From an uncultured Bacteroidales bacterium (GTDB lineage: Bacteria; Bacteroidota; Bacteroidia; Bacteroidales; Muribaculaceae), in contig CAMKGM010000015.1 of NCBI GenBank assembly GCA_946412245.1, positions 1-55,268 of the forward strand: DNA of 55,268 bases, given 5' to 3'. Numbering within the stretch: the first letter of the stretch is position 1; each line of letters opens with the position of its first letter. The position numbers were made by a program, and so were the translations under genes. Positions 6,282-49,857 of the stretch are shown piece after piece. The notes under the pieces are model-generated. The model was not told where the DNA came from and ran no database searches. It saw only the letters and a program-made list of their open reading frames with translations.

Positions 6282-6310
6282 TCAACGATTTGTTTTCATA
6301 ATCATCAAGA

Positions 6311-6342
6311 AAGAATCCTGCGGTCACTGCCGCAGGATTCTT
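6311..6342. terminator. Strong bidirectional terminator
   Basis: AAGAATCCTGCGG (6311-6323) and its perfect complement (6330-6342) form a 13-bp stem with a 6-nt loop TCACTG. The stem ends in A-rich and T-rich flanks, so it can end MIPS transcription and the convergent operon. Confidence 0.85.
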
Positions 6343-6462
6343 TTGTGTATATACCCAAAACGGAATCGGACTATATGATTAAGACGGAGGATGAAGTGCG
6401 GTCGTTGACGCACATTCTCGAGGAACCTCGTGTGCCAAGTTATGGGGTTGGCAGGAGACTGT

Positions 6463-7218
6463 TTACAGCGATTTGAGGGCCTCGGTGTGGAGGGCGAAGG
6501 CTTCGGCAGCGCCGCAGCGACATTCCAAGCCACGGAATTTCTCCATGGGAATGTGCCAGTCGTCGAGCAACGGCTGCATGCCTTGACTCACATGGCACAG
6601 GCATGCCTTGTGCTTGAGATCGACCACAGGGTCGATGTTCACCCAGTGCGTGGGCGTGAACATCTGTGACTGTGTGCCCGACATCGCCTCCATATAATAG
6701 AGTCGGAATGTGCGCCCCACGCGTCGCCAAGCGTCAAGCACCAGCAAGCCACAGGCGGCGTGATCGCGGTGGCTATCGATGGGCCAATGGGTGATGACCA
6801 CATCGGGTCTTTCCTGTTCAAGCAGTTCACGCATCTCCTTGTAGCGGGCCACATTCACCTCGGTATTGCCATCGACCTGGTTCATAAAAATGTGGCGAAT
6901 GCCCATTACGCGACAAGCATTCTCCGACTCCGCCACACGCACGGCAGCCGCCTGATCGTGACTCATGCCCTCAATACCGGCCTCACCGCGTGTGAGATAC
7001 ACGCTCACAACTTCATTACCTGCTTGCTTGAGCAGGCACATGGTGCCACCGGCACAGGTCTCGGGGTCGTCGGGATGAGCACCGACAACCAATATTTTCC
7101 TCTTACCACCATAGGCCACCGCATTGTCGTTGGCTGCCGCTGTCAGCGGTATTCCTCCCAAAATGGTTGCTGCCGCAGCGGCGCCAGCACCTTTCAGCAT
7201 GTCGCGTCGAGTAATCAT
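6463..7218 (-). CDS. PIG-L/LmbE-family deacetylase with Tat signal
   Basis: This 251-residue protein belongs to the LmbE/PIG-L family of zinc de-N-acetylases, which includes MshB (GlcNAc-inositol deacetylase) and the eukaryotic GlcNAc-PI deacetylase. AHPDDPE at residues 47-53 is the family metal and catalytic motif. A second histidine block (HWPIDSHRDHAA) supplies the third ligand region. The N-terminus TRRDMLKG followed by a hydrophobic alanine-rich stretch is a good twin-arginine signal, so the folded enzyme probably acts in the periplasm or at the membrane surface. It is the last gene of the minus-strand inositol-lipid set, and a 45-bp gap containing a perfect palindrome separates it from the HAD gene. 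The substrate is not known; an inositol-linked GlcNAc is suggested only by context. Confidence 0.85.
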   Translation of the reverse strand: MITRRDMLKGAGAAAAATILGGIPLTAAANDNAVAYGGKRKILVVGAHPDDPETCAGGTMCLLKQAGNEVVSVYLTRGEAGIEGMSHDQAAAVRVAESENACRVMGIRHIFMNQVDGNTEVNVARYKEMRELLEQERPDVVITHWPIDSHRDHAACGLLVLDAWRRVGRTFRLYYMEAMSGTQSQMFTPTHWVNIDPVVDLKHKACLCHVSQGMQPLLDDWHIPMEKFRGLECRCGAAEAFALHTEALKSL

Positions 7219-7989: not shown

Positions 7990-9016
7990 TTTTCAGTTGT
8001 TTTACGAATTGCTTACAGAATCGTTCGTGGGTAATAATCATATAAGCCATCATAGCATTGAGCACCACAATCTCAAAGACGAAGTAGAGCCACGGAGCCT
8101 TGATAATGACCGAGATAAACATAGCAATAATGCGGGTGTTGAACGAGAGCATATTGGTGTACTTCATGAGCGGCAAGCTCTTCATGCGGAAGTCGTCGCG
8201 GAACCGTTGCGGAATGGCATTGCCGAAGCGTGCCTTGAATTCACGCCGCAGGCCTTGCATGGCCGGTGTGAATGCCTCTTGCTGACGGGTGTAGTTGCGA
8301 TAGAAGAAGAGTGTGAGTTTCTTCATGAAGTTCTTGCCCCACGACAGTTGCTCATATTGTTCAGTGAGCATTTCAGAGCTATCAAGCTCGCTTCCCTCCT
8401 CGCCCTTGAGGAAGAAGAGATGGAACTGGCGGTAATAGTCGGCACTGGCGGCCTGCTTGGCATGACACAGGCCCGCAAACACTGCTATAGACCAAATAAT
8501 CCAGTTATGCCCGTTACCGTAGCAAAAGTAGTCGCCCAGCAGGCTGTCGCCAAACTGCAATTCGCGGAACACGAGCGAGAAATAGATGGCGAAGAACCAG
8601 AGGTCGCCGCTCACGCCGTCCAGAATGCGGCCCAGGCGCGAATACTGGTGTGTGAGGCGCGCGAGCTGACCATCGGCGCTGTCGTAGGTATTAGCCCAAA
8701 TAATCAGGAAGATCCCGAGATAATTGAGCCAAATGTAAGGTTGCGCTCCAAAGTAGAGCAGAATGCCACCGGCCACGCCCAAAAAGATAGACGCGATGGT
8801 GACCACATTGGGCGTGATGCCCAGTTTCGAAAACAGTTTAGCCCAAGCAAAGCCCAGCGGGCGATAGAACCACAGGTCAATAGTCTCCTCAGTGTCAAGC
8901 GACTTGAGTGACTGCTTATATTCCTTTCTTAAATCGTTTAAAGCCATGAGTGGTGATGAAATAAGGGTCCGAGAGAGTGTGTGTCCGGACAATGATTTGT
9001 ATGATAACGAGGTCAA
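7970..9016 (-). CDS. CDP-alcohol phosphatidyltransferase-family membrane protein
   Basis: This is a 348-residue integral membrane enzyme with several helices (for example residues 70-90 and 95-110). The family signature is present at residues 112-138: DSADGQLAR, eight residues, then G, RIL and D. The family moves a phospho-alcohol between a CDP carrier and a lipid. The fourth signature aspartate is displaced: the sequence reads DGVSGD where D-x3-D is expected. The ATG at 9016 overlaps the stop of the ATP-grasp gene as ATGA. An internal ATG at 8947 (MALNDLRKEYK) is an equally good start, since the first 23 residues look unconserved. Together with MIPS and a nucleotidyltransferase it is the likely inositol-headgroup transferase; acceptor (diacylglycerol or ceramide) unknown. 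Confidence 0.88.
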   Translation of the reverse strand: MTSLSYKSLSGHTLSRTLISSPLMALNDLRKEYKQSLKSLDTEETIDLWFYRPLGFAWAKLFSKLGITPNVVTIASIFLGVAGGILLYFGAQPYIWLNYLGIFLIIWANTYDSADGQLARLTHQYSRLGRILDGVSGDLWFFAIYFSLVFRELQFGDSLLGDYFCYGNGHNWIIWSIAVFAGLCHAKQAASADYYRQFHLFFLKGEEGSELDSSEMLTEQYEQLSWGKNFMKKLTLFFYRNYTRQQEAFTPAMQGLRREFKARFGNAIPQRFRDDFRMKSLPLMKYTNMLSFNTRIIAMFISVIIKAPWLYFVFEIVVLNAMMAYMIITHERFCKQFVKQLKNGGYQQ

Positions 9017-9885
9017 GAACCGGCTTGACGTTCCTTGATGAGAGTGAGAATGCGCTTAGCGATGTGGGGCGCGGCCTCAACGCGACATGGGGCGAAGCTG
9101 GGCCAGTCGTTGAAGTCAATGATTTGTATGCCGCCCTCGGGCGAGATGATGCAGTCGCCGCCATAAATCTCGACATTCAGTTCGTTGGCAGCCTTGTTGC
9201 ACAGCATCTTGAGTTCCTTAACATCAAAGGTTATGCCCTGCGACTTGCCATTGACCTCTTCCCAGCCATACTTGCTGTGTCCCTGGTCAAAGGGATAGAA
9301 CCAATAGAAGAAGTTGGAGCCTTTCACACCGTAGAACTTGACGAGGTCGCCCTCAAGATGCACATTGATCACGGCACGCTTTATGCCACGCAAGAAGTAC
9401 TCCTGCAGCACCTCTTGTGCCTCCTCAGGATGACGCACATAGGACACATCTTCCTTGTGCATGGCATGGAAGTCGCCGCGCTTAATCCAGCAACTCTTGA
9501 ACCCGCTCTTCTTGAGCATCGACTTGATGTTCTCGTCGGTGTTGACAATGAGGCTCTCTGGGTAGGGAATGCCGTTGCCCAGCAAGATGCGTGTCATGCG
9601 CTCGCGGGTGCAGTTCTCGATACCGTAGCCCGAGTTAATGACCAGTCGACCGTTATCCTCAAGTCGCTGCAAGTTTTCAATGGACTCTTGCTGCCGGCAC
9701 ATGGTCATGACAAACTCCTCTTCAACCCCATTGCGGTTAAACTGCTCCTCGCTATAGATATTCACCAAACAACCGCGCTTGCGTAGCTGCTCGGCTGTAG
9801 CGTTGAAGATAGCGGTGTCGTTGCCAATGTGGTTGGGCGAGTAGACTCCCGCTCTCATAATTCCGGCTATATTGATAACTGCCAT
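9013..9885 (-). CDS. ATP-grasp (RimK-like) ligase or kinase of unknown substrate
   Basis: This 290-residue protein has the look of an ATP-grasp enzyme. A Rossmann-like N-terminal part is followed by a nucleotide-binding lysine block (SCWIKRGDFHAMHKEDV) and a C-terminal magnesium site IIDFNDWPSF, which fits the D-x-N-x-P pattern of RimK-type ligases. ATP-grasp enzymes join a carboxylate to an amine or thiol through an acyl phosphate; the inositol polyphosphate kinase ITPK has the same fold. It sits between the nucleotidyltransferase (15-bp gap) and the CDP-alcohol transferase (4-bp overlap), so it is almost surely translated with them. Its role in an inositol-lipid cluster is unexplained: it could modify or phosphorylate the headgroup or attach an amino acid. 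No signal peptide is seen. Confidence 0.75.
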   Translation of the reverse strand: MAVINIAGIMRAGVYSPNHIGNDTAIFNATAEQLRKRGCLVNIYSEEQFNRNGVEEEFVMTMCRQQESIENLQRLEDNGRLVINSGYGIENCTRERMTRILLGNGIPYPESLIVNTDENIKSMLKKSGFKSCWIKRGDFHAMHKEDVSYVRHPEEAQEVLQEYFLRGIKRAVINVHLEGDLVKFYGVKGSNFFYWFYPFDQGHSKYGWEEVNGKSQGITFDVKELKMLCNKAANELNVEIYGGDCIISPEGGIQIIDFNDWPSFAPCRVEAAPHIAKRILTLIKERQAGS

Positions 9886-9900
9886 AGTGTGTGTGATGTA

Positions 9901-10626
9901 TTAATGTTCAGTATGTTGATGAAAAGATGATATAAATTGTTCAGCCACAGGAATATCGGCGGCATGATCCACATCGATGATTTTGTCGATGGAATAGGCC
10001 TGAAGCGAGAATCCGTTGTCGACCAGAGCGCGTTGAAAGTTACGCATGCGCGAAATGCCCTGTTCAATGCAGCGGTCAAGCACCTCAAATGCCTTGTGAC
10101 TCATCGCATAGATGCCGCCAGAAACATATTTCGCACCGTCAAAAGGCTTGTCGCGGAAAGCCGTAATGTTCATGTCGGCATCGTTGTCAACCTCCACGTA
10201 GAGAGGTTTCTCGTCGTCAATGAATGGCGTGACCGCCCACATACCATCGTGGGTGTCATCATTCTCAAAAGCCGCCACATAGCCCGCAAAGTCTTGCTCT
10301 CGGAAGATGGTGTCGACCGTAGTGAGGCAGAATTTTCCCTCGGGTATGACGCGACTCAGTTCCCAAAAACTGTGCATCGAACTGGGAGTGGTCTTCACCA
10401 CAAGGTGGAGCGGCACCGGCAACTCTAACTGTTCGAGAAAACGGCGCACCTCGGTCATGTGCTCGTTGACAATGATGCTGATACTCTCAGCACCGCAGCG
10501 CAGAAAGATGTTAATAAGCCGCAGAATCATAGGCTCGCCGCAAAGCGTGACGAGCGGTTTGGGCCGGCTCACTCCTTCCTGGGCCAGTCTCGACCCTTCG
10601 CCTGCTGCTATTATGGCATAGTTCAT
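9901..10626 (-). CDS. Sugar/polyol-phosphate nucleotidyltransferase
   Basis: This 241-residue cytosolic protein opens with the signature AAGEGSRL and RPKPLV of the NTP-transferase family, at about residues 7-26, with the magnesium-binding TVDT further on. It activates a phosphorylated sugar or polyol to an NDP derivative. Immediately downstream are the ATP-grasp and CDP-alcohol transferase genes. Known di-myo-inositol-phosphate pathways pair an inositol-1-phosphate cytidylyltransferase with a CDP-alcohol transferase, so by context this enzyme may make CDP-inositol from the MIPS product. That is inference: the family also contains glucose-, mannose- and choline-phosphate enzymes, and no specificity residue was identified. 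Confidence 0.85.
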   Translation of the reverse strand: MNYAIIAAGEGSRLAQEGVSRPKPLVTLCGEPMILRLINIFLRCGAESISIIVNEHMTEVRRFLEQLELPVPLHLVVKTTPSSMHSFWELSRVIPEGKFCLTTVDTIFREQDFAGYVAAFENDDTHDGMWAVTPFIDDEKPLYVEVDNDADMNITAFRDKPFDGAKYVSGGIYAMSHKAFEVLDRCIEQGISRMRNFQRALVDNGFSLQAYSIDKIIDVDHAADIPVAEQFISSFHQHTEH

Positions 10627-10644
10627 ATCGCTCAGTTATTAGTG

Positions 10645-11778
10645 TTAAGTGAGAATGGGATCGGTGGGGTCATCGTCATCCTTGGTGAGGTCAAGCACCA
10701 CATTGTCCTTGCCGCGCTCAAAGTACTGCTTGCGCAAGGGATTGGCATGGTTCTCGTCGTAGGTTTTGCGATGGCGATAAATATCAATAGCGGTGAAGAT
10801 GGCCTGTCGCAAGGAATCTTCGTGAGCAATGCCCTGCCCCACTATGTCGTAGCCCGTTCCGTGGTCGGGGCTGGTGCGCACATAGGGCAGTCCGGCGGTG
10901 AAATTCACGCCGCTATCCATTGAGAGTGCCTTGAACGGGGCAAGACCTTGATCGTGATACATGGCCACAACGCCATCAAAGTGGGTGTAGAGTTTGCTAC
11001 CGAAGAAGCCGTCGGCGGCATAGGGCCCGAAGCAAAGCACCTTGTTCTCGGTCGCTTCCTGAATGGCGGGAATAATTTGCTCCTGCTCCTCCTTGCCCAG
11101 CAAGCCATGCTCTCCGGCATGCGGATTAAGTGACAGCACGGCGATGCGAGGTCCCTGGCAGGCGAAGTCGCGTTTGAGCGACTTGTTGAACTGCATGATG
11201 GTTGACAAAACCGTTTCGCGCGTCACTGCTTGGGGCACATCGGCAATGGGTTTGTGAATGGATACCAGCGCCACACGCAGTTGCTCAGCGCATAGAATCA
11301 TGAGCGCTTTCTCGCCGGTACCCAAACTCGCTTCGAGATACTCGGTGTGACCCGGGAACTGAAATTCGTTGCTCTGAATGTTCTCCTTGCTGATGGGGGC
11401 GGTGACCAAAACATCAATTTTGCCTTGTTTCAGGTGTTGAACCGCTGCCTCAAGGGCATCAAAGGCGGCCTTGCCGGCTTGCTTGTCGGGCTGTCCAAGT
11501 TCCACCTTTACCTCATCGCGACAAACCTCAAAGAGGTTAGGCACGTTGTCCTTCAGGTTGTTGATGTCGCGAGTATAATGTATTTGGAACGCGGGCATCT
11601 CCAGTGCCTTGCGGTGATAGGTAAGGATTCTACTGGACCCGTAGATGATGGGCTGGCACAGCTCAAGCATCGCATTGTTGCTCAATGTTTTGAGAATAAT
11701 CTCATAACCTATGCCGTTAGTGTCACCCTGTGTGATGCCCACACGAATTTTTCGGTTATTATCTTGATTGTTACTCAT
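10645..11778 (-). CDS. pdxA: 4-Hydroxythreonine-4-phosphate dehydrogenase
   Basis: PdxA is a cytosolic, metal- and NAD-dependent enzyme of pyridoxal-5'-phosphate synthesis that oxidises 4-phosphohydroxy-threonine. The start IRVGITQGDTNGIGYEI is the family's N-terminal block. The metal and substrate region PGHTEYLEASLG and the histidine stretches YHDQGLAPFK and RTSPDHGTGYDI are also present. At 377 residues it is slightly longer than usual, with an acidic C-terminal extension (KDDDDPTDP). It is first in a minus-strand transcription unit with its own promoter (11831-11862), 18 bp ahead of the nucleotidyltransferase. No functional link to the inositol genes is obvious. Confidence 0.95.
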   Translation of the reverse strand: MSNNQDNNRKIRVGITQGDTNGIGYEIILKTLSNNAMLELCQPIIYGSSRILTYHRKALEMPAFQIHYTRDINNLKDNVPNLFEVCRDEVKVELGQPDKQAGKAAFDALEAAVQHLKQGKIDVLVTAPISKENIQSNEFQFPGHTEYLEASLGTGEKALMILCAEQLRVALVSIHKPIADVPQAVTRETVLSTIMQFNKSLKRDFACQGPRIAVLSLNPHAGEHGLLGKEEQEQIIPAIQEATENKVLCFGPYAADGFFGSKLYTHFDGVVAMYHDQGLAPFKALSMDSGVNFTAGLPYVRTSPDHGTGYDIVGQGIAHEDSLRQAIFTAIDIYRHRKTYDENHANPLRKQYFERGKDNVVLDLTKDDDDPTDPILT

Positions 11779-11830
11779 TATCTTAAAATAGTTGTTTCTA
11801 ATTTTGTAGTCAATAGACCTTGTGAAGGGT

Positions 11831-11862
11831 CAAAATTACAACAAATTCAGCAAACGGGCAAA
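11831..11862 (-). promoter_or_regulatory. Promoter of the pdxA / inositol-lipid operon
   Basis: On the minus strand TTTG (11859-11862), a 20-nt spacer and TAATTTTG (11831-11838) make a full Bacteroidetes promoter. The predicted start is about 45 nt before the pdxA ATG. TTTTGTAGTC at 11802-11811 (plus strand) lies in the leader. Confidence 0.75.
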
Positions 11863-11863
11863 C

Positions 11864-12814
11864 TTATTGCAGTATTTGGCGCTCGACATTATATCGTGGC
11901 CTGTCCTTGACCTCAATATAGATTTTACCGATGTACTCGCCAACAATGCCCAGCCCTATGAGAACACAGCCGCCAATGAACCAGAGCGAAAGGATGAGCG
12001 AAGCCCAACCGCTCACGGCACGACCGCTGAAGTAGGCAATGAGCACATACACAAGAATGCCAAGTGCAACCAGTGTAAAAATGACACCCAAGGAGAGTAC
12101 CATGCGCACGGGCTTGATGCTGAACGAGGTGATGCCGTTCACGGCAAAGCTCAACATCTTGCTCAGCGGATACTTACTCTCGCCGGCAGCCCGCTCGGTG
12201 CGATCGTAGTAGACAGAGTCGGTGCGATAACCCACAAGCGGCACGATGCCGCGCAAGAACAAGTTGCGCTCGCGGTACTTCATAAGCTGGTTCACAGCTC
12301 GGCGGCTCATCAGGCGATAATCGGCATGATTATAGATGCTCTTCACACCCAAGCGGCGCATGAGTTTATAGAAAGCCTTGGCCGAGTTGCGCTTGAACCA
12401 AGTGTCGGTCTTCCGCTGGCGGCGCACGCCATACACGATGTCGCAGCCCTGGTGATACTTATTGACCATCTCGGTCATCACGCTCACATCGTCTTGCAAG
12501 TCGGCATCGATGCTTATGATGATGTCGGCCCGTTCGGCTGCCACCTCAAGGCCGGCCATGAGTGCATTTTGATGACCCACATTGCCGGCCAACTTCACGG
12601 CGCACACCTCTTGGTGCTGACCGGTAAAGCCTTCGATGAGTTGCCAGGTTGAGTCAGTGGACCCGTCATTGACGTAGAGTATCCGGCTCTCCTCGCCCAC
12701 CAAGCCGGCATCGACCATAGTCTTGAGTTGGTCACGCAATCGCTCGGTGGTGAGGGGTAGCACTTCCTGCTCGTTGTAGCAGGGAACCACGATATACAAA
12801 ACGTCTTTTTTCAT
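11864..12814 (-). CDS. Family 2 glycosyltransferase (GtrB/DPM1-like)
   Basis: This 316-residue membrane-anchored glycosyltransferase has a GT-A domain with VVPCYNE near residue 14, VNDGSTDST near 50 and the DADLQDD metal site near 105. Two C-terminal membrane helices follow (about 225-250 and 262-285), an arrangement typical of GtrB/YfdH and bacterial dolichol-phosphate-sugar synthase-like enzymes. These transfer glucose, mannose or a modified sugar from an NDP donor to undecaprenyl phosphate. It lies 7 bp after the endonuclease I gene and upstream of the pdxA promoter, so it belongs to the rlmN-nuclease unit with possible read-through into the inositol set. Sugar specificity cannot be read. 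Confidence 0.9.
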   Translation of the reverse strand: MKKDVLYIVVPCYNEQEVLPLTTERLRDQLKTMVDAGLVGEESRILYVNDGSTDSTWQLIEGFTGQHQEVCAVKLAGNVGHQNALMAGLEVAAERADIIISIDADLQDDVSVMTEMVNKYHQGCDIVYGVRRQRKTDTWFKRNSAKAFYKLMRRLGVKSIYNHADYRLMSRRAVNQLMKYRERNLFLRGIVPLVGYRTDSVYYDRTERAAGESKYPLSKMLSFAVNGITSFSIKPVRMVLSLGVIFTLVALGILVYVLIAYFSGRAVSGWASLILSLWFIGGCVLIGLGIVGEYIGKIYIEVKDRPRYNVERQILQ

Positions 12815-14929: not shown

Positions 14930-16012
14930 TTACTTGTTAGTCGGGGTTTTGCGGGTTGGCTGAGGCTTGGTGGCCGGTTGCGCGGCCTTTACCTTGCCGG
15001 CGAGCATACCGCAGGCGGCGCTGATGTCCTCGCCACGACTGCGGCGAATGGTGCACGTGATGCCGCGGCTGTTCAGATAGTCGCGGAACTGTGCCATGCG
15101 CTCGTCGCTGCTGGTGCGCAGCTTGGGTATGTCTGGAATCATGTGATAGCGAATGAGATTGACGCGCACATGCTCGTCGGGAATGATTTCGCGCAAGGCC
15201 TCGGCGTGCTTGATGTCGTCGTTGAACCATTGCCACATGATGTACTCAATCGAGAGGCGGCGCTGGTGAGCGAAGTCGTAGTCGCCAAGCATCTGCATCA
15301 CTTCCTTGATGGGATAAATCTTCTCGAGTGGCATCATGGAGAGTCGCTCCTCGGCAATGGCATTGTGGACGCTCACAGCGATATGCACCTGTGTTTCCTC
15401 AACCAGTTGTCGCAAAGCGGGCTTCACACCCACGGTTGACACGGTGACGCGCTTCGGGCTCCAGGCAAATCCCCACGGGGCGGTCATAATCTCAATGACC
15501 TTGAGCACCTCATCGATGTTGTCCAGCGGCTCACCCATGCCCATGAACACCACATTGGTCACATCGGCTGCCTCAGGAACGCTCAGCACCTGGTTGATGA
15601 TTTGGTTTGCGGTGAGATTTCCGGAGTAGCCCTGTCGGCCTGTCATGCAGAAGTAGCAGTTCATCCTGCAGCCCTTCTGCGACGAGATGCACAGCGTCAC
15701 GCGGTCGTCCTCGGGAATCATCACAGTCTCCACCTGTTTGCCCTCGCCCACGTCAAAGAGGTACTTCACTGTACCGTCGGCACTGGTCCGCGCATTGACA
15801 GGAGCCGCGAGGCCCACCGTGTAATGTTCCGAGAGTTTCTCGCGATTAGCCTTAGAGATGTTCACCATGGCATCAAAGGTTGTCACACGCTTGTTGTAAA
15901 TCCAGTCAGCAAGTTGCTTGGCAACAAACTTGGGCATTCCCAACGCAAGTACAGTGCGCTGCAGTTCATCGAGCGTCATGCCCGCCAGCGGGCGCTTATT
16001 TTTCAGTTCCAT
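14930..16012 (-). CDS. rlmN: 23S rRNA/tRNA adenine-C2 methyltransferase RlmN
   Basis: RlmN is a radical SAM enzyme that methylates A2503 of 23S rRNA and A37 of some tRNAs. The cluster-binding cysteines are visible in GCRMNCYFCMTG near residues 116-126 (CxxxCxxC). Other family blocks are VVFMGMGEPLDN and SIEYIMWQWFND. At 360 residues it is the normal size. It ends with a Pro/Thr/Lys-rich tail (TKPQPTRKTPTNK), likely disordered. A minus-strand -7 box TATATTTG lies at 16035-16042. The endonuclease I gene follows 26 bp downstream. Identity is secure. Confidence 0.96.
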   Translation of the reverse strand: MELKNKRPLAGMTLDELQRTVLALGMPKFVAKQLADWIYNKRVTTFDAMVNISKANREKLSEHYTVGLAAPVNARTSADGTVKYLFDVGEGKQVETVMIPEDDRVTLCISSQKGCRMNCYFCMTGRQGYSGNLTANQIINQVLSVPEAADVTNVVFMGMGEPLDNIDEVLKVIEIMTAPWGFAWSPKRVTVSTVGVKPALRQLVEETQVHIAVSVHNAIAEERLSMMPLEKIYPIKEVMQMLGDYDFAHQRRLSIEYIMWQWFNDDIKHAEALREIIPDEHVRVNLIRYHMIPDIPKLRTSSDERMAQFRDYLNSRGITCTIRRSRGEDISAACGMLAGKVKAAQPATKPQPTRKTPTNK

Positions 16013-16284
16013 AGTATCAATATTAAATAACTTGCAAATATAATAATAAATAACTTACCAACCACAACCTTTCACCAAAAATCGCACACTTGAACCAATT
16101 CCTCTCATTAGGATTTATACTAAAACATTATATCACAACATTAGGATTTTCCCCACCGCATTAGGTTTCTTCCCACGGCATTAGGATTCTTCCCACAGCA
16201 TTAGGATTCTTCCCACATTGCACTCCCTCACTCGCGGTTTTGCGCCCGTTCGGTTGCGAGCACTTCGTGGTTCTGACCGAAGCC

Positions 16285-43165: not shown

Positions 43166-44071
43166 ATGGCACGAAGAAACGTCATTACGGTCTACATTTG
43201 GATTGTTGACACACTGCAACGCTACGGTGCGCTCACGCTGGCACAGCTCAATGACTTGTGGAAACGGTCGTCACTGGGCGACGGTAACCCCATTCCGCGA
43301 CGCACGTTCTTCCACTACCGCGATGCCATTGAGGAGATGTTCGGCATCTCACTCAAGTGCAACCGCTCTACCTTTGAATACTACATTGACGAGGAGGAGA
43401 GCGAGAGCGACTCGCGCATGCAGCAGTGGTTGCTCGACAGTATGTCGATGAGCGGTATGCTCACCAACTCGCGCGATATCTCGCACCGCATCGTGCTCGA
43501 GAATGTGCCATCGGCACGTCAATACCTGTCGGTAGTCATCAATGCCATGCGCGACAACCGACGCATTAAGTTCAGTTACAAGTCCTACAATCGCGTGAAT
43601 GCCTCCGACGGCATCGTCATTGAGCCTTATTTCGTCAAGATTTTCAAGCAACTGTGGTATGTCGTGGGCATGAATGTGAAGGATGGTATCATCAAGACCT
43701 ATGCCTTAGACCGCATGTCCAAGCTCATCATCACGCAAGAGACCTTTGAAATGCCCGAGGATTTTGACCCCATCGAGTTCTTCAAGGACTGCTTCGGCAT
43801 CACCACCAACCGCAACGAGGCCAAGGACATCGTGCTGCGTGTGTCGCCCACCCAAGCGAAGTATTTCAGAGCGCTACCGTTGCACTCATCGCAACAAGAG
43901 GAGGTGCACGACGCTTATTCCATCTTCCGCTACCGTATGCGACTCACCTATGACCTGAAAGAGGAAATCATGTCGCACGGCAGCGATGTGGAAGTGATTT
44001 CACCCCCTGAATTCAAGGCGCAAATCACCACCGAGCTGAAAAAAGCCCTGGCCAACTACGGCCACCAGTAA
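43166..44071 (+). CDS. WYL-domain transcriptional regulator
   Basis: This 301-residue cytosolic regulator has an N-terminal winged-helix-like region (about residues 5-70), a linker, then a WYL domain with RRIKFSYKSYN and KQLWYVVGMN near 150-175, and a C-terminal WCX-like extension. WYL proteins bind a nucleic-acid or nucleotide ligand and regulate transcription; in Bacteroidetes they are common single regulators. It follows the muramidase-symporter pair closely and may control it. The original tRNA-Leu terminator lies downstream in the opposite direction. Confidence 0.9.
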   Translation: MARRNVITVYIWIVDTLQRYGALTLAQLNDLWKRSSLGDGNPIPRRTFFHYRDAIEEMFGISLKCNRSTFEYYIDEEESESDSRMQQWLLDSMSMSGMLTNSRDISHRIVLENVPSARQYLSVVINAMRDNRRIKFSYKSYNRVNASDGIVIEPYFVKIFKQLWYVVGMNVKDGIIKTYALDRMSKLIITQETFEMPEDFDPIEFFKDCFGITTNRNEAKDIVLRVSPTQAKYFRALPLHSSQQEEVHDAYSIFRYRMRLTYDLKEEIMSHGSDVEVISPPEFKAQITTELKKALANYGHQ

Positions 44072-44168: not shown

Positions 44169-44184
44169 TGTACTCGGAGCGGGA
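44169..44184. repeat. attL: 16-bp tRNA-Leu 3'-end remnant
   Basis: TGTACTCGGAGCGGGA, identical to 49771-49786 at the 3' end of the intact tRNA-Leu. Sequence diverges right after it (GTCAAATATT instead of tRNA body). Confidence 0.9.
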
Positions 44185-44300
44185 GTCAAATATTCGGAAT
44201 CAAATATTTCCCAATTTCTGCAAATACTTGATTTAGACCACAAAGGTAAAAAATAAATTTGAATTAAAGTGCAATTCAGTGTAAAAAAATAAAGAAAATG

Positions 44301-44332
44301 TTTGTGTAATGTTTGTGTAATTGCTATCTTTG
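44301..44332 (+). promoter_or_regulatory. Integrase promoter with 11-bp direct repeats
   Basis: TTTG (44301-44304), a 20-nt spacer and TATCTTTG (44325-44332). Two copies of AATGTTTGTGT (44297-44307, 44308-44318) overlap the -33 box and spacer and could be an operator. Confidence 0.75.
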
Positions 44333-44357
44333 CATTGAATTATAAAATGATTGAACT

Positions 44358-45797
44358 ATGGCAAAGACAAAGAACACAACTTTTGCACTTGTATTAAACA
44401 GCAGACCCAATAGGTTTGGCAAGTATGCTATCTATGTTAGAATTATTCAAGATAGAAAGATTACAACCACTAAAACTTCAGTCGATGTAGAAAAGAAGAA
44501 CTGGAATCCTGAAGGTGGCAAGAATGAAAACTGGGTAAGGCAAAGTGATCTTGACTTTAAATCCAAAAATGACATTCTAAGCAAGGAACTCGCAAAGGTC
44601 AAGAAAACCTATCAGGAACTCAAGGAAACATCGACAGCAACCACTGAAAACATCATAGCAACTATTAAGGCTGGTGCCAGCAGTGCAACCTTCTTCAAGG
44701 TCGAGGAAGAAAACATGACTGGCTTCGCAGCCAAAAGAGCACAGCAGATTCATGATGAGGGTGGAATAAGAAACTGGAAGATATATGTAACTTTCCTGAA
44801 CAAGCTGGCTGGCTTCCTCGACACTCAACACAAAAAAGAACTGCTGTTTGCAGAAATCACCACTGAATTTGTTCATGACTTTTATAGTTACTTAGGCACA
44901 ATTTCCAACGAAAGGAGCAATGCATCTGCCAAACTATCATTGAACTACAAAGCAACCTTGATGAACAAATTCAAGGCTTTAATGCAGCTTGCTATCAAGG
45001 AAAAGAAGATAACAGCAGACAAAGACCCATTCTTGTTCTTTGAATACAAAGATGAGAACACCACAAAAGAAAAGCTAGATGAAACTGAAATAAAAGCCTT
45101 GCAAGCACTGGAACTGGAAAAAGATAGCCTTGAATGGCATAGCAGAAACTGCTTTTTCTTCAGCTTCTATTGTGCTGGCATGAGGGCTGCCGATGTGCTG
45201 CTGCTAAGGTGGAAGAATGTGGAAGGTGGGAAACTCAACTACACCATGAGCAAGAATGGAAAACTTGTTATCGATAGGGATATTATGCCACAAGCAGCAG
45301 CTATTCTTGATTTATATCGTAGCAAAGACAATAACCCCGGTGATTACATTTTTCCACTCATGAGCAACAGCAAGGATTATTCCGAAGCACTTGCTCAAGT
45401 GGAATTATCGATGCTTCCCAATGATGTAAAACAAAAGGTGTTCAATGAAATTTCTTCTAAGAATGTACTGCTGAACAAAGGGCTTAAAAGGATTGCCAAA
45501 AAGGCTGGCATCAGCAAGAAAGTTACGATGCACATTGCAAGGCATTCATTCGCCAACAAAGCCATGAAGGAAGGCATAAAAAGCAGCAACATACAAGGAT
45601 TGCTGAAGCATTCAAGCCTAAGCATTACTGAAAAGTACATGGGCAATTTCGGCAATCAGGAAGACAACGAAACACTTCACAAGATATTTGGCAATAGCAA
45701 GAAAGCACAACTGCTGAAGCTGATTGATAGTGCCAAACTGAGTGACGAGGATATTAATAAACTCATGGCATCGGTGCTTGCTGTCCTCGACAAATGA
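44358..45797 (+). CDS. Tyrosine recombinase (integrase)
   Basis: This 479-residue phage-type integrase inserts and excises the element at tRNA-Leu. The N-terminal part is the arm-binding domain common in Bacteroidetes integrases. A SAM-like core-binding domain follows at roughly residues 120-230. The catalytic domain shows the first arginine in YCAGMRAADVLLLRW, the H-x-x-R box in MHIARHSFANKAM and the nucleophile tyrosine in SITEKYMGNFG. All key residues are present, so it is probably active. It is next to attL and reads inward, and has its own promoter. Confidence 0.95.
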   Translation: MAKTKNTTFALVLNSRPNRFGKYAIYVRIIQDRKITTTKTSVDVEKKNWNPEGGKNENWVRQSDLDFKSKNDILSKELAKVKKTYQELKETSTATTENIIATIKAGASSATFFKVEEENMTGFAAKRAQQIHDEGGIRNWKIYVTFLNKLAGFLDTQHKKELLFAEITTEFVHDFYSYLGTISNERSNASAKLSLNYKATLMNKFKALMQLAIKEKKITADKDPFLFFEYKDENTTKEKLDETEIKALQALELEKDSLEWHSRNCFFFSFYCAGMRAADVLLLRWKNVEGGKLNYTMSKNGKLVIDRDIMPQAAAILDLYRSKDNNPGDYIFPLMSNSKDYSEALAQVELSMLPNDVKQKVFNEISSKNVLLNKGLKRIAKKAGISKKVTMHIARHSFANKAMKEGIKSSNIQGLLKHSSLSITEKYMGNFGNQEDNETLHKIFGNSKKAQLLKLIDSAKLSDEDINKLMASVLAVLDK

Positions 45798-45825
45798 ACT
45801 GCACAAAACTTAAACACATATAACA

Positions 45826-46473
45826 ATGGAAACAAACAAGTATCTTGAAGGGATTGAAGAACTGGTGGATTACTACCAGTTTCCCAGTGATGCACCCAGC
45901 ACCACATTTGCCAAAGGTTATAATTTGGCTTTCTTTGTAAGTGACTTTTTAAATAGACTGACAAATGCAACACACCCAAAATTTTCACAACTTGAAGAAT
46001 GTAGAGAATTAATAAGATTCTTGACCAAATGCAAGGGTTGTGAAATTACCATGATTGGAAAAATTGATTTAGGTGGTGGGAAAATTACTAAGATACCAGC
46101 ACAATTCAAAGACTGGAATTTTTTAGGCACACTACAAGCCATAGCATCTTTTGAAGCAGATAGGTTGGAAAGGTTATTTAATAAGAATTGCATTCAAAAA
46201 GAAGAAACACTATCAGGAAATAAACTGCTGGGTGAATATGCTGATGAACTGCTGTTTTATATCGAAGGTTTTAACTTTGGTGAAATATCACAAACAAAGA
46301 AATATTCTTTTATTTATGATGCTTTGCGACTAGCCGATGTACTTGCCGGGAACACACAAGCAGTAATTATTACCGAAGAAGGCTTTGACAGCGATATAGG
46401 ACATGAAAAAAGTAAAAAAGTTTATGAATGGTTGAAAGCCTATAAGAAGCACAAAAACAAGCAAAATGACTGA
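45826..46473 (+). CDS. Element protein of unknown function
   Basis: I do not recognise this 215-residue protein. It is helical and charged, with CxxCEI-like KCKGCEIT near residue 75 and a glycine-rich turn DLGGGKITK. It has a lysine-rich C-terminal helix. There is no signal peptide or membrane segment. It starts 28 bp after the integrase stop and is followed by a strong terminator, so int and this gene make one unit. A role in integration control or phage interference is possible but unsupported. Confidence 0.65.
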   Translation: METNKYLEGIEELVDYYQFPSDAPSTTFAKGYNLAFFVSDFLNRLTNATHPKFSQLEECRELIRFLTKCKGCEITMIGKIDLGGGKITKIPAQFKDWNFLGTLQAIASFEADRLERLFNKNCIQKEETLSGNKLLGEYADELLFYIEGFNFGEISQTKKYSFIYDALRLADVLAGNTQAVIITEEGFDSDIGHEKSKKVYEWLKAYKKHKNKQND

Positions 46474-46478
46474 TGCAC

Positions 46479-46526
46479 AAATGCCTAAAACACTTGCCTA
46501 AAAAGCTTGATTTTAGGCATTTTATT
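46479..46526 (+). terminator. Terminator after the integrase unit
   Basis: AAATGCCTAAAA (46479-46490) and TTTTAGGCATTT (46511-46522) form a 12-bp stem, followed by TATTT. Confidence 0.8.
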
Positions 46527-46530
46527 TACC

Positions 46531-46561
46531 TTGTGGGCTTGTTACACTCAAATTAATTTTG
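46531..46561 (+). promoter_or_regulatory. Promoter of the excisionase-like gene
   Basis: TTG (46531-46533), a 20-nt spacer and TAATTTTG (46554-46561). Confidence 0.7.
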
Positions 46562-46622
46562 CACCGACATCAAGCTGCAAGCCATGATGTTGTGGCAGTA
46601 AAACTTGGTGCAAAATTATATA

Positions 46623-46943
46623 ATGAATAACAATACTGCAACACCAGCAATTCCACAAATAGTGGTGCTTCCTGAATCGGAGTGGGCAAGCATCAAGGAC
46701 TTGCTGAAGGAAGTGAAGGACACACTACAAACCAAATCCGATGAGGACATGAAAAGCCAGTGGGTTGAAAGCACCACTGCAAGAAAAATGCTTGGAGTTT
46801 CTGCTAAGACATGGCAAGATTATCGTGACAAAAGAGTGATCCCCTTCAGCCAGTTTGGGAGGAAAATTTATGTGCGTAGGGCTGACATCGAAGCATTTTT
46901 GCAGCAACACTACATCAAAGCAAGAAAGGAGTGTGCCGTATGA
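46623..46943 (+). CDS. Excisionase-like helix-turn-helix protein
   Basis: This DNA-binding protein of about 106 residues has a C-terminal MerR/excisionase-type winged HTH: STTARKMLGVSAKTWQDYRDK, then IPFSQFGRKIYVRRADIEAFL. Such HTH_17 proteins direct excision or regulate small mobile elements. The N-terminal 50 residues form a likely coiled coil. ATG 46623 is preferred over TTG 46605. The stop overlaps the next start as ATGA, so the two are translationally coupled. Confidence 0.85.
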   Translation: MNNNTATPAIPQIVVLPESEWASIKDLLKEVKDTLQTKSDEDMKSQWVESTTARKMLGVSAKTWQDYRDKRVIPFSQFGRKIYVRRADIEAFLQQHYIKARKECAV

Positions 46944-47440
46944 GCAAGAAGAATTATAACATGATTGACAATTTCCTTAGCCAGTCGATGCAAGTCGCAC
47001 ATTACAACCACAAGGAAGGCACTAAAACAAGCTACTACTGCACCAGTGGAGCAAAGATTTTGCCAAATCGACTTTCTATCAGCCGAAACACCGAAATAAC
47101 CAGTGTTCAGCGCAAAGGAAGAAATTTGCTTCACCCTATCACCGGGCAATTACTGGGTAAGTTTAGAGTAGACGAGGAATCACCACTGAAGCAGCACAAG
47201 CCATTCAGGTTAAGAACTCAGCTTTGGGAAGTGCCACTGCACCCCAGCTTCATAGGCTATGGCACTATAGGCATAACCAATGAGGAAGGTAAGATAACTG
47301 ATACTGGTGATTTGGTTATGCTTTTCAGCCATGATGAGTGGAAAACCATAGACATCTATTATTTCGCTGGTATGGGTAATCCAAATGATATGCCACAAGT
47401 AGAAAAGTTTCTTGAAGAATATGTGAAGAACAATCATTGA
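46940..47440 (+). CDS. Element protein of unknown function (beta-rich)
   Basis: I do not recognise this 166-residue protein. It starts MSKKNYNMIDNFLSQSM and contains a probably beta-rich core with conserved-looking HPITGQLLGKFRVDE and LWEVPLHPSFIGYGTIGITN. It is cytosolic. It overlaps the excisionase-like gene by 4 bp (ATGA). Its first codons contain a near-copy of an 18-bp motif that also precedes the integrase and lies at 47484. A hairpin follows its stop. Confidence 0.6.
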   Translation: MSKKNYNMIDNFLSQSMQVAHYNHKEGTKTSYYCTSGAKILPNRLSISRNTEITSVQRKGRNLLHPITGQLLGKFRVDEESPLKQHKPFRLRTQLWEVPLHPSFIGYGTIGITNEEGKITDTGDLVMLFSHDEWKTIDIYYFAGMGNPNDMPQVEKFLEEYVKNNH

Positions 47441-47449
47441 AATCAAAAA

Positions 47450-47479
47450 TGTGGGGTAGGCCTCGCAGCACACCCCACA
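47450..47479 (+). terminator. Hairpin after the 46940 gene
   Basis: TGTGGGGT (47450-47457) and ACCCCACA (47472-47479) form a GC-rich stem without a T-run. Confidence 0.5.
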
Positions 47480-47537
47480 AAATGAATTATAAAATGATTG
47501 ACTTTCTGCAAAGCCAAATCGCATGGCAAAGATAATA

Positions 47538-47614
47538 CTTTTCTCAAATATTCAAAAATCCCTTCACATGGCGAAGCAAAGCCTTCAATGGGATAGATAC
47601 ACTCTTGAGAAAAG
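47538..47614 (+). other. Nested inverted repeats, possible structured RNA
   Basis: CTTTTCTCAA (47538-47547) pairs with TTGAGAAAAG (47605-47614). Inside, ATCCC (47558-47562) pairs with GGGAT (47590-47594), and GAAG (47573-47576) with CTTC (47583-47586). It lies in the 247-bp gap before the 47688 gene. Confidence 0.5.
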
Positions 47615-47687
47615 AAATGCCATTACAAGCAAAATGTGGGCTTCTCAGCCACAATTATTATTCAACACTCAATAACACAAGAAGACA

Positions 47688-48047
47688 ATGACAAACAAGA
47701 ACAATAACACAACTGCACCTTTCTTAGATTATGGTAGACTTGATCCTGATTTTGTGGAAGGGCTACACCTCGACAGCTACACCTCGACAGCTTTTGCTGA
47801 AGTGGTGTGGGAAGGTTGTGAATCACTGGTGAAACAAATCAATAACACTGAAAATGTAGCAAGGCATTCACACCTTTTTAGCTGCTTGCTGATAGGATTA
47901 TATATGCACTATCGATGCTTAGGCTTCAGTGATGAGGAATCACAAAAGGCAGCTTTTGACTTCCTCAACTGCAAGGACTTTCAAGTGCCTTACATCGCAT
48001 TACTGCCACTGGAGTTAAAAGACTTGATAAGGGAGATTAAACTATGA
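47688..48047 (+). CDS. Element protein of unknown function
   Basis: This 119-residue, likely helical cytosolic protein is not recognised. Residues 25-33 come from a short direct DNA duplication (CTACACCTCGACAG twice), giving LDSYTST. A hydrophobic stretch HLFSCLLIGLYMHYRCLGF lies mid-protein, too short and mixed to be a secure membrane helix. Its stop overlaps the next start as ATGA, so it is coupled to the 48044 gene. Confidence 0.6.
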   Translation: MTNKNNNTTAPFLDYGRLDPDFVEGLHLDSYTSTAFAEVVWEGCESLVKQINNTENVARHSHLFSCLLIGLYMHYRCLGFSDEESQKAAFDFLNCKDFQVPYIALLPLELKDLIREIKL

Positions 48048-48754
48048 GCAACACATCATACTTGAACTTTCCCATTTCAATTATTGAAGGAATCTTCGAG
48101 AATCACAATGAAACCTTTAACAACATTGTAAAATGGGCTGCTGCCGATGTTATGAAGGGTTGTAATGGTCAATTCCCAACAGCAAGGCTTCTTGCAGCAA
48201 ACCAGGAACTGCAAATAAATATGCCAGTCAATCAAAGTACCTACCAGCAATGCTTGGATATTTACAAGAAATATACCGGGGCAAGAACTGGACTATCAAG
48301 GGAGAATGCGAAATACTTGAAACAATGCTGGGGCTTCCTCAAAGATTCCGACAAGGTTTTGTGGCTTGCTTTCATAGCTGCAAAAAGCATCATAGGCAAT
48401 AAGGCATACTGCAAAACAAATGACTTGATGCTGTTTGCCCGCATGAATGGGCTTCTTAGGGCTTATGCGAATGAAAAAGATTTGAAGGAGCATTCAAACC
48501 CACTCATTTCAAATTTCTACACTCGCAGAAAAAGGGACACACTCAGGAAAAGACTTGCTGAGGAATTCCACATTAAGTGCTATTCTTTTCACGATAGGGG
48601 TTATTTCATATCTCGAAGGTTATCACTTGAAAGACTGGTGGAACTGGTGGAACTCGATAGGCATCAAAAGAAATCCTATCAAGGGAAGACTGCAAGGGCA
48701 AGAAAAAGGGCACTTGAATTAATTCATGAGAATCTGCTGGAAGATAGCAGTTAA
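48044..48754 (+). CDS. Element protein of unknown function, possible replication or DNA-binding protein
   Basis: This 236-residue basic, helical protein is not assigned to a family. The C-terminal third (TRRKRDTLRKRLAEEF and a later KTARARKRALEL) is strongly basic, as in nucleic-acid-binding proteins. It stands directly upstream of an iteron-like TGTACA array and AT-rich tract, which is where an initiator gene is often placed in small replicons. That position is the only reason to suggest an initiator role. A homology or structure search would decide. Confidence 0.55.
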   Translation: MSNTSYLNFPISIIEGIFENHNETFNNIVKWAAADVMKGCNGQFPTARLLAANQELQINMPVNQSTYQQCLDIYKKYTGARTGLSRENAKYLKQCWGFLKDSDKVLWLAFIAAKSIIGNKAYCKTNDLMLFARMNGLLRAYANEKDLKEHSNPLISNFYTRRKRDTLRKRLAEEFHIKCYSFHDRGYFISRRLSLERLVELVELDRHQKKSYQGKTARARKRALELIHENLLEDSS

Positions 48755-48774
48755 TTTAAGAAAGACATTTTTTA

Positions 48775-48900
48775 ATTTAAGGTGTACATTTTGAGCACCT
48801 TAAATAGAAGGCATACAATCAAGTGTACAATTATTTTGGAAAATGTACAATAAACCCCAAAAATGTACACTGAAATGTGCAATTAATGTACACCTTAAAT
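48775..48900. repeat. Iteron-like TGTACA array bounded by inverted repeats
   Basis: TGTACA (one copy TGTGCA) occurs at 48783, 48824, 48844, 48864, 48876 and 48887. Intervals of 41, 20, 20, 12 and 11 bp are close to whole helical turns. A perfect 16-bp inverted repeat bounds the array (48775-48790, 48885-48900). An AT-only tract follows at 48900-48950. It could be a replication origin or an operator for the next gene. Confidence 0.7.
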
Positions 48901-49000
48901 AATTGATATATAATATTATAATTAATTTTATATAATAAGAATTTATATAACTCACCTTTGGTGATTTTAACTTTTTTCTTTCTATAAAAACCTCAACACA

Positions 49001-49462
49001 ATGCAACAAAAATCGACAAACTTGACACTGGTGACTGGCTTGACACCTCAACAAGAACAAGCAGCAGTGCTGCTGGCTTCAGGTGAAAGTGTTACTGAAG
49101 TAGCCAGCAAGGTTAATGTGAATAGGGCTACAATTTACTTGTGGCAGCAGAAAATAAATTTTCAATGCTTCTATAATCAGCAGTGCCAAATCATTCAGGA
49201 CAACATCAAGAATGGATTATTTGGCTTGTACGAAGATGCACTGCAAGCTGTAAGGGAAACTTTGAAATCCGACAATGAAGCTGCAAGGCTTAAAGCAGCC
49301 ATGTATGTTATTGGCAAGATCGAAATCATGGACACCAGCCAGCAGAATCCAGTGGAAGAAATCAAGAAAATCTGCACTGCCGATGCTTTTGATGAAGAAT
49401 ATATAACTTTCGATAATAAGAAATTTGATGCACTTATGCATGAAAATGGATTGAGTGATTAA
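49001..49462 (+). CDS. Helix-turn-helix protein resembling phage terminase small subunits (phBC6A51-like)
   Basis: This 153-residue protein starts with LTPQQEQAAVLLASGESVTE and then VASKVNVNRATIYLWQQ, a homeodomain-like HTH of the phBC6A51 / HTH_Tnp type. The same N-terminal block occurs in small terminase subunits and in insertion-element proteins. A helical segment (LYEDALQAVRETLKSDNEAARLKAAM) follows, which in terminases mediates oligomerisation. It is the last gene of the element and lies after the iteron-like array. Phage satellites often carry a TerS homologue to redirect packaging, which makes this assignment attractive but unproven. Confidence 0.65.
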   Translation: MQQKSTNLTLVTGLTPQQEQAAVLLASGESVTEVASKVNVNRATIYLWQQKINFQCFYNQQCQIIQDNIKNGLFGLYEDALQAVRETLKSDNEAARLKAAMYVIGKIEIMDTSQQNPVEEIKKICTADAFDEEYITFDNKKFDALMHENGLSD

Positions 49463-49552
49463 TGTTATTCTTCTTGTGTGCTGCCAGTGTGCCTTCATGG
49501 CTCACTGGCTTTTCCATTAAAAACAATATGTGTTTGGTGGATTTTTTCGCCC

Positions 49553-49640
49553 TCATTACACGCACACGAAGAAATATTTTTATGGGGTCACTACACGCAC
49601 GAAGAAATATTTTTGTGCCCTCATTATGCACACGAAGAAA
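49553..49640. repeat. 33-bp tandem repeats beside attR
   Basis: CGAAGAAATATTTTT starts at 49567 and 49600, with CGAAGAAA again at 49633, exactly 33 bp apart. Each is preceded by a TCA(T/C)TA-GCAC-like stretch. Likely arm-type sites for integrase or excisionase. Confidence 0.75.
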
Positions 49641-49717
49641 CAAAAAAGTTTTTCTTTTGAAAATGGGCAGAAAAAGACCTTTTTGAAGAAAAGTTTGTGC
49701 ATAGTTTGTGCAACATA

Positions 49718-49768
49718 AAATAAAAAGCACCATAAAACACTGAATATTAGTGAATTATTGGTGCTTTT
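49718..49768 (-). terminator. Element-borne replacement terminator for tRNA-Leu
   Basis: On the minus strand AAAAGCACCA (49759-49768) pairs with TGGTGCTTTT (49723-49732), with an inner CACT/AGTG hairpin, and ends TTTTTATTTTA. It lies just after the tRNA 3' end, inside the element. Confidence 0.75.
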
Positions 49769-49770
49769 AA

Positions 49771-49786
49771 TGTACTCGGAGCGGGA
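49771..49786. repeat. attR: 16-bp repeat within tRNA-Leu
   Basis: TGTACTCGGAGCGGGA at the 3' end of the tRNA gene, identical to attL. Confidence 0.9.
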
Positions 49787-49857
49787 CTTGAACCCGCACA
49801 GCCGTAATGGCCAAGGGATTTTAAGTCCCTCGTGTCTACCGATTCCACCATCCGAGC
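49773..49857 (-). tRNA. tRNA-Leu (UAA)
   Basis: This 85-nt class II tRNA has acceptor arms GCTCGGA and TCCGAGT, anticodon loop CTTAAAA giving UAA, a long variable arm and T-loop GGTTCAAGTCC. CCA is not encoded. Its last bases are supplied by the integrated element. The promoter is at 49894-49924. Confidence 0.96.

Follow-up and report, generated by a model that had tools for sequence, protein, structure and literature searches.

The window analysed here (55,268 nt) is one entire contig, CAMKGM010000015.1, of the 3.17-Mb, 138-contig genome of an uncultured Bacteroidales bacterium (Muribaculaceae). Positions 44169..49786 form a 5.6-kb stretch that is almost certainly an integrative element and is apparently intact. 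It is bounded by exact 16-bp repeats, the right one of which lies in a tRNA-Leu(UAA) gene, and contains seven assigned open reading frames (ORFs), all on the plus strand, in the order integrase, orf2, Xis-like protein, orf4, orf5, Rep-like orf6, TGTACA iterons with AT-rich DNA and, finally, a protein similar to small terminase subunits (TerS). The best explanation of this element is that it belongs to a set of 4.5-7.7-kb tRNA-targeted Bacteroidales elements with exchangeable modules; with a probability of roughly 0.6, it is a self-replicating phage satellite that redirects the packaging of a helper phage. Its features are as follows.

44169..44184: attL, the distal copy of the 16-bp core, TGTACTCGGAGCGGGA, identical to 49771..49786
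44301..44320, plus strand: two TTTGTGTAA repeats with a spacing of 11 bp (left pair), probably arm sites of the integrase
44358..45797, plus strand: tyrosine integrase, 479 aa, uninterrupted frame (Phage_integrase, 5.5e-14; Phage_int_SAM_5; Arm-DNA-bind_5)
45826..46473, plus strand: orf2, 215 aa, 28% identity to orf2 of locus L030
46623..46943, plus strand: Xis-like HTH_17 protein, 106 aa (HTH_17, 5.6e-11; phrog_66, excisionase, 3.5e-6), 87% identity in L005
46940..47440, plus strand: orf4, 166 aa, well conserved (61-65% identity in four relatives), also present in two further families of the order
47688..48047, plus strand: orf5, 119 aa, matching an L005 ORF with 27% identity over 63 aa
48044..48754, plus strand: orf6, 236 aa, probable replication initiator
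48775..48955: probable origin, with TGTACA iterons (supported by a shuffle test), TTTAAGGTGTACA-type inverted ends (inverted repeat I1) and then AT-rich DNA
49001..49462, plus strand: TerS-like protein, 153 aa, last gene before attR (phrog_2538, 7.5e-11, and phrog_7344, 2.3e-9, terminase small subunit)
49541..49633: direct repeat in three copies of about 25 nt, with a spacing of 33-35 bp, between terS and attR (family D2)
49694..49713, plus strand: two TTTGTGCA repeats with a spacing of 11 bp (right pair), probably arm sites of the integrase
49723..49768: inverted repeat AAAAGCACC/GGTGCTTTT, read from the sequence
49771..49786: attR, the core copy covering the tRNA 3' end, TGTACTCGGAGCGGGA, identical to 44169..44184
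49772..49857, minus strand: tRNA-Leu(UAA), anticodon taa, the integration target

A single repeat of 16 bp is weak evidence of integration because random probes can match as well: among 400 random 80-base probes, 17 had matches of at least 16 bp and 19 of at least 15 bp. The convincing feature is that the register relative to the tRNA end stays constant. With a probe limited to the final 50 tRNA bases and the 30 bases downstream, 14 of 16 elements (10/11, 1/1 and 3/4 in three sets) proved to have 14-28-bp repeats anchored at the tRNA 3' end and starting 16 to 11 bases before that end; no anchored repeat was found with this probe in L031, where the contig ends first, or in L172 (here and below, G and L numbers denote genomes and loci). 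The att-to-att spans range from 4.5 to 7.7 kb. Inside these ends, all six elements compared (that of the window, L005, L013, L029, L030 and L158) contain direct-repeat pairs 11-12 bp apart, 133-166 bp inward of the left end and 80-94 bp inward of the right one. The motif varies with the integrase type (TTTGTG, TGTTGATG or GCCAGT); the motifs were picked by eye first and counted afterwards, and they also occur elsewhere (two extra copies in the element of the window plus one unpaired near its right end, and 2-5 in L029, L030 and L158). Given that the integrase carries an Arm-DNA-bind_5 domain, these pairs are probably arm-type integrase sites. The inverted repeat next to attR probably serves as a replacement terminator for the tRNA; an Rfam search up to E 0.1 identified nothing besides the tRNA. 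A 36-nt repeat (83% identity) is located at 44336-44371, ahead of int, and at 47483-47518, in the gap between orf4 and orf5, with a similar stretch in L005.

The integrase contains three Pfam domains that exceed the cut-off. Scans of the seven ORFs against Pfam, PHROGs and NCBIfam, which are the library scans referred to throughout, detected no meaningful family match for orf2, orf4, orf5 and orf6, and no structural, relaxase or conjugation families. An earlier note, made from the letters and the ORF translations, had listed for a minimal integrative element in tRNA-Leu exact 16-bp att repeats, an apparently intact integrase, an excisionase-like protein, four unknown proteins, an iteron-like array, a TerS-like last gene and no structural or conjugation genes. 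Each of these observations stands, and the placement at tRNA-Leu is borne out by the repeats at the tRNA 3' end and by the relatives described below. That note also allowed for the decayed end of a larger prophage; the presence of both att ends, of arm-like repeats at both ends and of conserved relatives rules this out. There are, likewise, no structural genes, the ORFs are open and terS is under purifying selection.

The motif TGTACA occurs five times within 48751-48960, compared to a shuffle mean of 0.14, and none of 500 shuffles reaches five copies. Orf6 is a probable iteron-binding replication initiator; a plasmid search with orf6 gave no match, and a Foldseek search against PDB gave no significant match. 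The arrangement may be that of a Rep_3/RepE-like iteron replicon, in which a tandem winged-helix initiator is found next to iterons and AT-rich DNA. A Rep-like gene with iterons is also what would be expected of a self-replicating integrative element, i.e., an integrated iteron plasmid, that spreads via a conjugative helper from its own origin of transfer (oriT) or by another route, with the TerS-like protein captured as a DNA-binding regulator or an accessory of replication. We consider this alternative unlikely, although it deserves attention: no relaxase was detected among the seven ORFs in the library scans, and further evidence on both sides comes from the terminase genes.

The only Pfam family above the cut-off for the TerS-like protein is HTH_Tnp_1_2, a helix-turn-helix (HTH) family. 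A TerS profile built solely from elements nevertheless picks up phage TerS proteins, one adjoining a Terminase_3 large terminase subunit (TerL) and an SPP1-type portal in G012, and another adjoining a Mu-type portal in G115. A further match of this kind, in G162, was discarded because its frame contains stops. The ratio of nonsynonymous to synonymous substitution rates (dN/dS) of terS is about 0.14-0.25 over four pairs, indicating that the gene is under purifying selection. The three direct repeats that lie between this gene and attR could function as a site for packaging or for protein binding.

Twelve other small tRNA-inserted elements, from the same genus and another family, have genes in common with the element of the window. 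The orf6 profile matches 6 of 101 genomes of the genus (own genome included), and a six-row version matches 5 of 397 genomes of the family (again including the own genome), all of the same genus; the sole match in a scan of genome contigs is the contig of G203, also of this genus. The orf6 relatives are inserted in different tRNA genes.

G203/L005: orf6 relative at tRNA-Leu(CAA)
G315/L013: orf6 relative at tRNA-Arg(CCT)
G308/L014: orf6 relative at tRNA-Lys
G345/L015: orf6 relative at tRNA-Arg(CCG)
G237/L016: orf6 relative at tRNA-Arg(CCT)

Besides orf6, L005 and L013 have the integrase, Xis and orf4 in common with the element; the integrases of L014, L015 and L016 are not linked to its integrase by blastp at 1e-3. 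The TerS-like protein matches 6 of 100 other genomes of the genus, in five cases within small tRNA-adjacent elements, the sixth match (37 aa within a 1430-aa ORF of G299) being due to chance. In all five other TerS-bearing elements, the TerS homolog is encoded directly 3' of a different replication-like gene. Two of these (G303 and G187, TerS identity 77% and 67%, both at tRNA-Arg(CCT)) show the order int-orf2-xis-orf4-Rep-like-terS-tRNA, and the other three (G146, G173 and G330, TerS identity 42%, 40% and 39%) are all in tRNA-Leu genes. The Rep of G173 contains a G2P/Phage_CRI domain (1e-21), and those of G330 and G146 look similar by eye; the G303-type Rep has a sub-threshold match to Phage_CRI (0.016) and is linked by blastp to the G173 Rep through L122. 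The terS gene is the final one in three of the five elements (G303, G187 and G330). In G146, where the integrase end lies outside the contig, and in G173, TerS is followed by a DUF5681-like 95-aa ORF (L031 8920-9207 and L032 8855-9142, minus strand), and another small ORF also follows. The G173 locus (L032) contains att-like copies at 8313-8340, 15043-15057 and 16028-16055, two of them distal, which suggests that insertions at tRNA-Leu(CAA) are nested or in tandem.

Other terminase genes are present in elements that were detected independently of TerS. The orf4 profile matches 3 of 393 genomes of the order, namely the own genome and two from other families. In one of these (G757/L122, at tRNA-Ala), the order int-orf2-like-orf4-Rep-like is followed by a Terminase_2 protein (3.4e-24, with a weak match to phrog_2538, 1.7e-6), and two ORFs separate the Terminase_2 gene from the tRNA; in the other (G520/L121), the contig ends after Rep. 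An element of about 7.4 kb at tRNA-Arg(CCT) in G336 (L163; G336:C40:65000-78000) encodes an L032-type integrase, an HTH_17 protein, DUF3987, a PriCT_2 primase, a DUF5681 protein and TerL (5349-6985, minus strand; PF17288, 1.7e-16; phrog_2, 1.6e-31), with no recognized capsid gene. L163, L167 and L172 have no gene directly in common with the element of the window. L015 encodes a DUF5681-like protein below the cut-off (0.0022) along with RusA and S24 genes. Taken together with the ORFs that follow TerS in L031 and L032, L163 and L015 hint at DUF5681 proteins as possible partners of terminases. L014 (9273-10595), L167 and L172, three elements without a terminase gene, contain a gene pair of about 220 and 130 aa that is alike by eye.

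The occupancy of the integration sites is variable. The tRNA-Leu(UAA) gene is unoccupied in G122 and G322, the two nearest relatives found: the tRNA and the galM side are retained (about 77% identity over 1.85 kb), the remaining 1.5 kb matches positions 38.7-40.0 kb of the window in inverted orientation, and no query protein of the elements matches these loci. An empty site with both flanks was not obtained here; only the galM side is shared because the left-flank gene has other neighbors in the nearest relatives. The downstream neighbors of this gene (43166-44071) differ in three near relatives (L044-L046), which suggests a rearranged boundary. At tRNA-Arg(CCT)/secD, the best 30 of 86 matching loci among 93 genomes were surveyed: 9 show rubrerythrin, the tRNA and secD and are free of an element, 11 combine the tRNA and secD with other genes and contain no related integrase, 5 contain a small integrase element (G187, G340, G336, G242 and G193), and 5 were left unclassified, two of them with a related integrase. 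G187 and G237 carry different elements at the tRNA-Arg(CCT) site. Thus, the arrangement with variable occupancy that the earlier note proposed to look for does exist in related genomes; the exact gene set was not found at tRNA-Leu(UAA) elsewhere. An immobile remnant, be it an ex-prophage end or a satellite that no longer moves, would be compatible with the single full copy in the own genome and with the lack of circle or particle evidence. This possibility is improbable: none of the seven main ORFs is interrupted, the element has its att and arm-like sites, selection on terS is purifying, and there are relatives in several tRNA genes and unoccupied sites elsewhere.

The satellite reading is favored because of the terminase evidence, namely the homology of TerS to phage TerS, Terminase_2 in L122 and TerL in L163. 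The same evidence speaks against an integrated plasmid, given that TerS-type genes of unrelated Pfam families follow the replication gene and that one similar element (L163) also has TerL. Several observations weigh on the other side. The best structural matches of the TerS-like protein span mainly the HTH, with similar scores for transcription regulators and known small terminases; the integrated plasmid would explain this resemblance to regulators. Among the 11 elements found without TerS (L005, L013-L016, L122, L030, L158, L163, L167 and L172), a clear terminase gene is present in 3 (L122, L030 and L163), or in 2 of 10 if L030, the site of which was known beforehand, is left out; the 8 of 11 that have no clear terminase gene again suit the plasmid alternative. 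By analogy, these relatives may use packaging-site mimicry, or else they may be no satellites. Seven viral contig scans yielded no relative of the element, and this sequence-based analysis shows no circle, particle DNA or helper. A PF04466 TerL was detected in 2 of 8 carrier genomes searched (own genome and G173). Divergent regulators, a primase and capsid-remodeling genes of the kind found in phage-inducible chromosomal islands (PICIs) were not recognized in the ORFs of the element by the library scans. Hence the possible phage satellite of the earlier note is favored and unproven.

As a marker of helpers, phrog_2 (a terminase large subunit family) was not used because it matches control genomes too (8 of 8 carriers and 11 of 14 controls). 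In the own genome, a Terminase_3 TerL adjoins a Terminase_2 TerS at G000:C23 (L156) 9459-12055; this locus possibly belongs to a resident phage and candidate helper, unlinked to the element and with a different TerS type. Among the matches listed, the element DNA matches phage records (20 of 69) and plasmid records (20 of 31) only through the tRNA. The integrase matches 45 phage records, all below 60% identity. Gut 'Bacteriophage sp.' scaffolds (six of eight listed, integrase identity 22-26%) were not counted as members; the six annotated phage scaffolds contain no orf4, orf6 or TerS relative, and some have generic Xis-like matches only.

Phage satellites are best known from groups other than Bacteroidales. 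PICIs typically contain a divergent regulator pair near the integrase and a primase/replication initiator pair, and are usually about three times the size of the present element. Unlike these, the element has seven ORFs all on the plus strand, no divergent regulator pair, HTH families only in xis and TerS, and no family-level match of genes beyond the integrase, HTH and TerS; at about one third of the usual size, its likeness to phage-inducible islands, drawn in the earlier note, holds as an analogy, with co-directional ORFs and no primase. In their general plan (PMC13376191), PICIs have no structural genes; the integrase and Xis lie on one side, terS is located towards the opposite end, and the islands possess replication genes of their own. 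The element, with its probable replication function, matches PICIs, including the Staphylococcus aureus pathogenicity islands (SaPIs), in these respects, with terS (49001-49462) distal to the integrase as the last gene before attR. According to PMC10803314, the phage-inducible chromosomal minimalist islands (PICMIs) of Vibrionaceae encode a DUF3987-type primase, lie beside fis, and are packaged without a terS gene, for which packaging-site mimicry is suggested (PMC10803314, PMC11389934). The element resembles PICMIs in its very small size, integrase, HTH_17/AlpA-like protein, replication function and lack of a capsid-remodeling gene; it differs in having an iteron Rep and TerS, in its location in tRNA-Leu and in lacking a DUF3987-type primase, whereas L163 does carry DUF3987. 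If the TerS-like protein of the satellite served mainly to interfere with the helper, by competing for TerL, rather than to redirect packaging, and the satellite were packaged by site mimicry, this would fit both PICMI packaging without terS and the backbone-similar relatives that lack TerS (L005, L013 and L158). Nothing specific speaks against this version; TerL in L163 suggests active packaging, and we rate interference as the least probable of the alternatives, at long odds.

Among small integrative elements, Tn5520 is a mobilizable element of Bacteroidales, and tycheposons and virion-encapsidated integrative mobile elements (VEIMEs) are marine, tRNA-targeted and in some cases thought to be satellites. 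The element resembles Tn5520 and NBU1 in being small, integrase-bearing and resident in Bacteroidales, and differs from them in that those carry a mobilization protein: the library scans of its seven ORFs detected no relaxase or mobilization protein, a bare oriT not having been searched for. At the level of general description, tycheposons and VEIMEs share the small size and tRNA targeting and differ in being marine. In its excerpted text, PMC11389934 names NBU1, tycheposons and VEIMEs, and its satellite list includes none from Bacteroidales. Judged by its gene content, the element does not appear to be a PICI, a PICMI or an integrative and mobilizable element. With satellites in general it shares integration and probable replication functions of its own without structural genes, and the TerS homolog could serve to capture the packaging of a helper. 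No description of such elements in Bacteroidales was found in the titles and abstracts listed by searches of open-licence literature, in agreement with the earlier note.

Direct support exists for the boundaries, the relatives, the unoccupied sites, the iterons, the homology of TerS to phage TerS and the purifying selection on terS. Under the satellite reading, the integrase and the Xis-like protein would act at the core in the tRNA and at the arm-like repeats to bring about integration and, presumably, excision; Orf6 would bind the TGTACA iterons and fire a plasmid-like origin, yielding circles or multimers. The TerS-like protein would bind element DNA and pair with the TerL and capsid of a helper phage, and this DNA would be packaged and transduced, perhaps as concatemers, as suggested by analogy with PICMIs (PMC10803314). 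More tentatively, and at somewhat less than even odds, the elements could represent an undescribed family of very small satellites of gut Bacteroidales built by plug-in exchange on a tRNA int/Xis chassis, the members of which may choose different helpers. The swapped replication modules would be the iteron Rep, the G2P-like Rep and DUF3987 with a primase, and the packaging modules two TerS families (of different Pfam/PHROG type), DUF5681 with TerL, or none. If the satellite reading is correct, this compact set adds a transduction route in gut Bacteroidales and provides a minimal system in which the gene requirements of a satellite can be examined, and the exchange of terminase modules among related elements makes the link between the packaging gene and helper choice directly testable.

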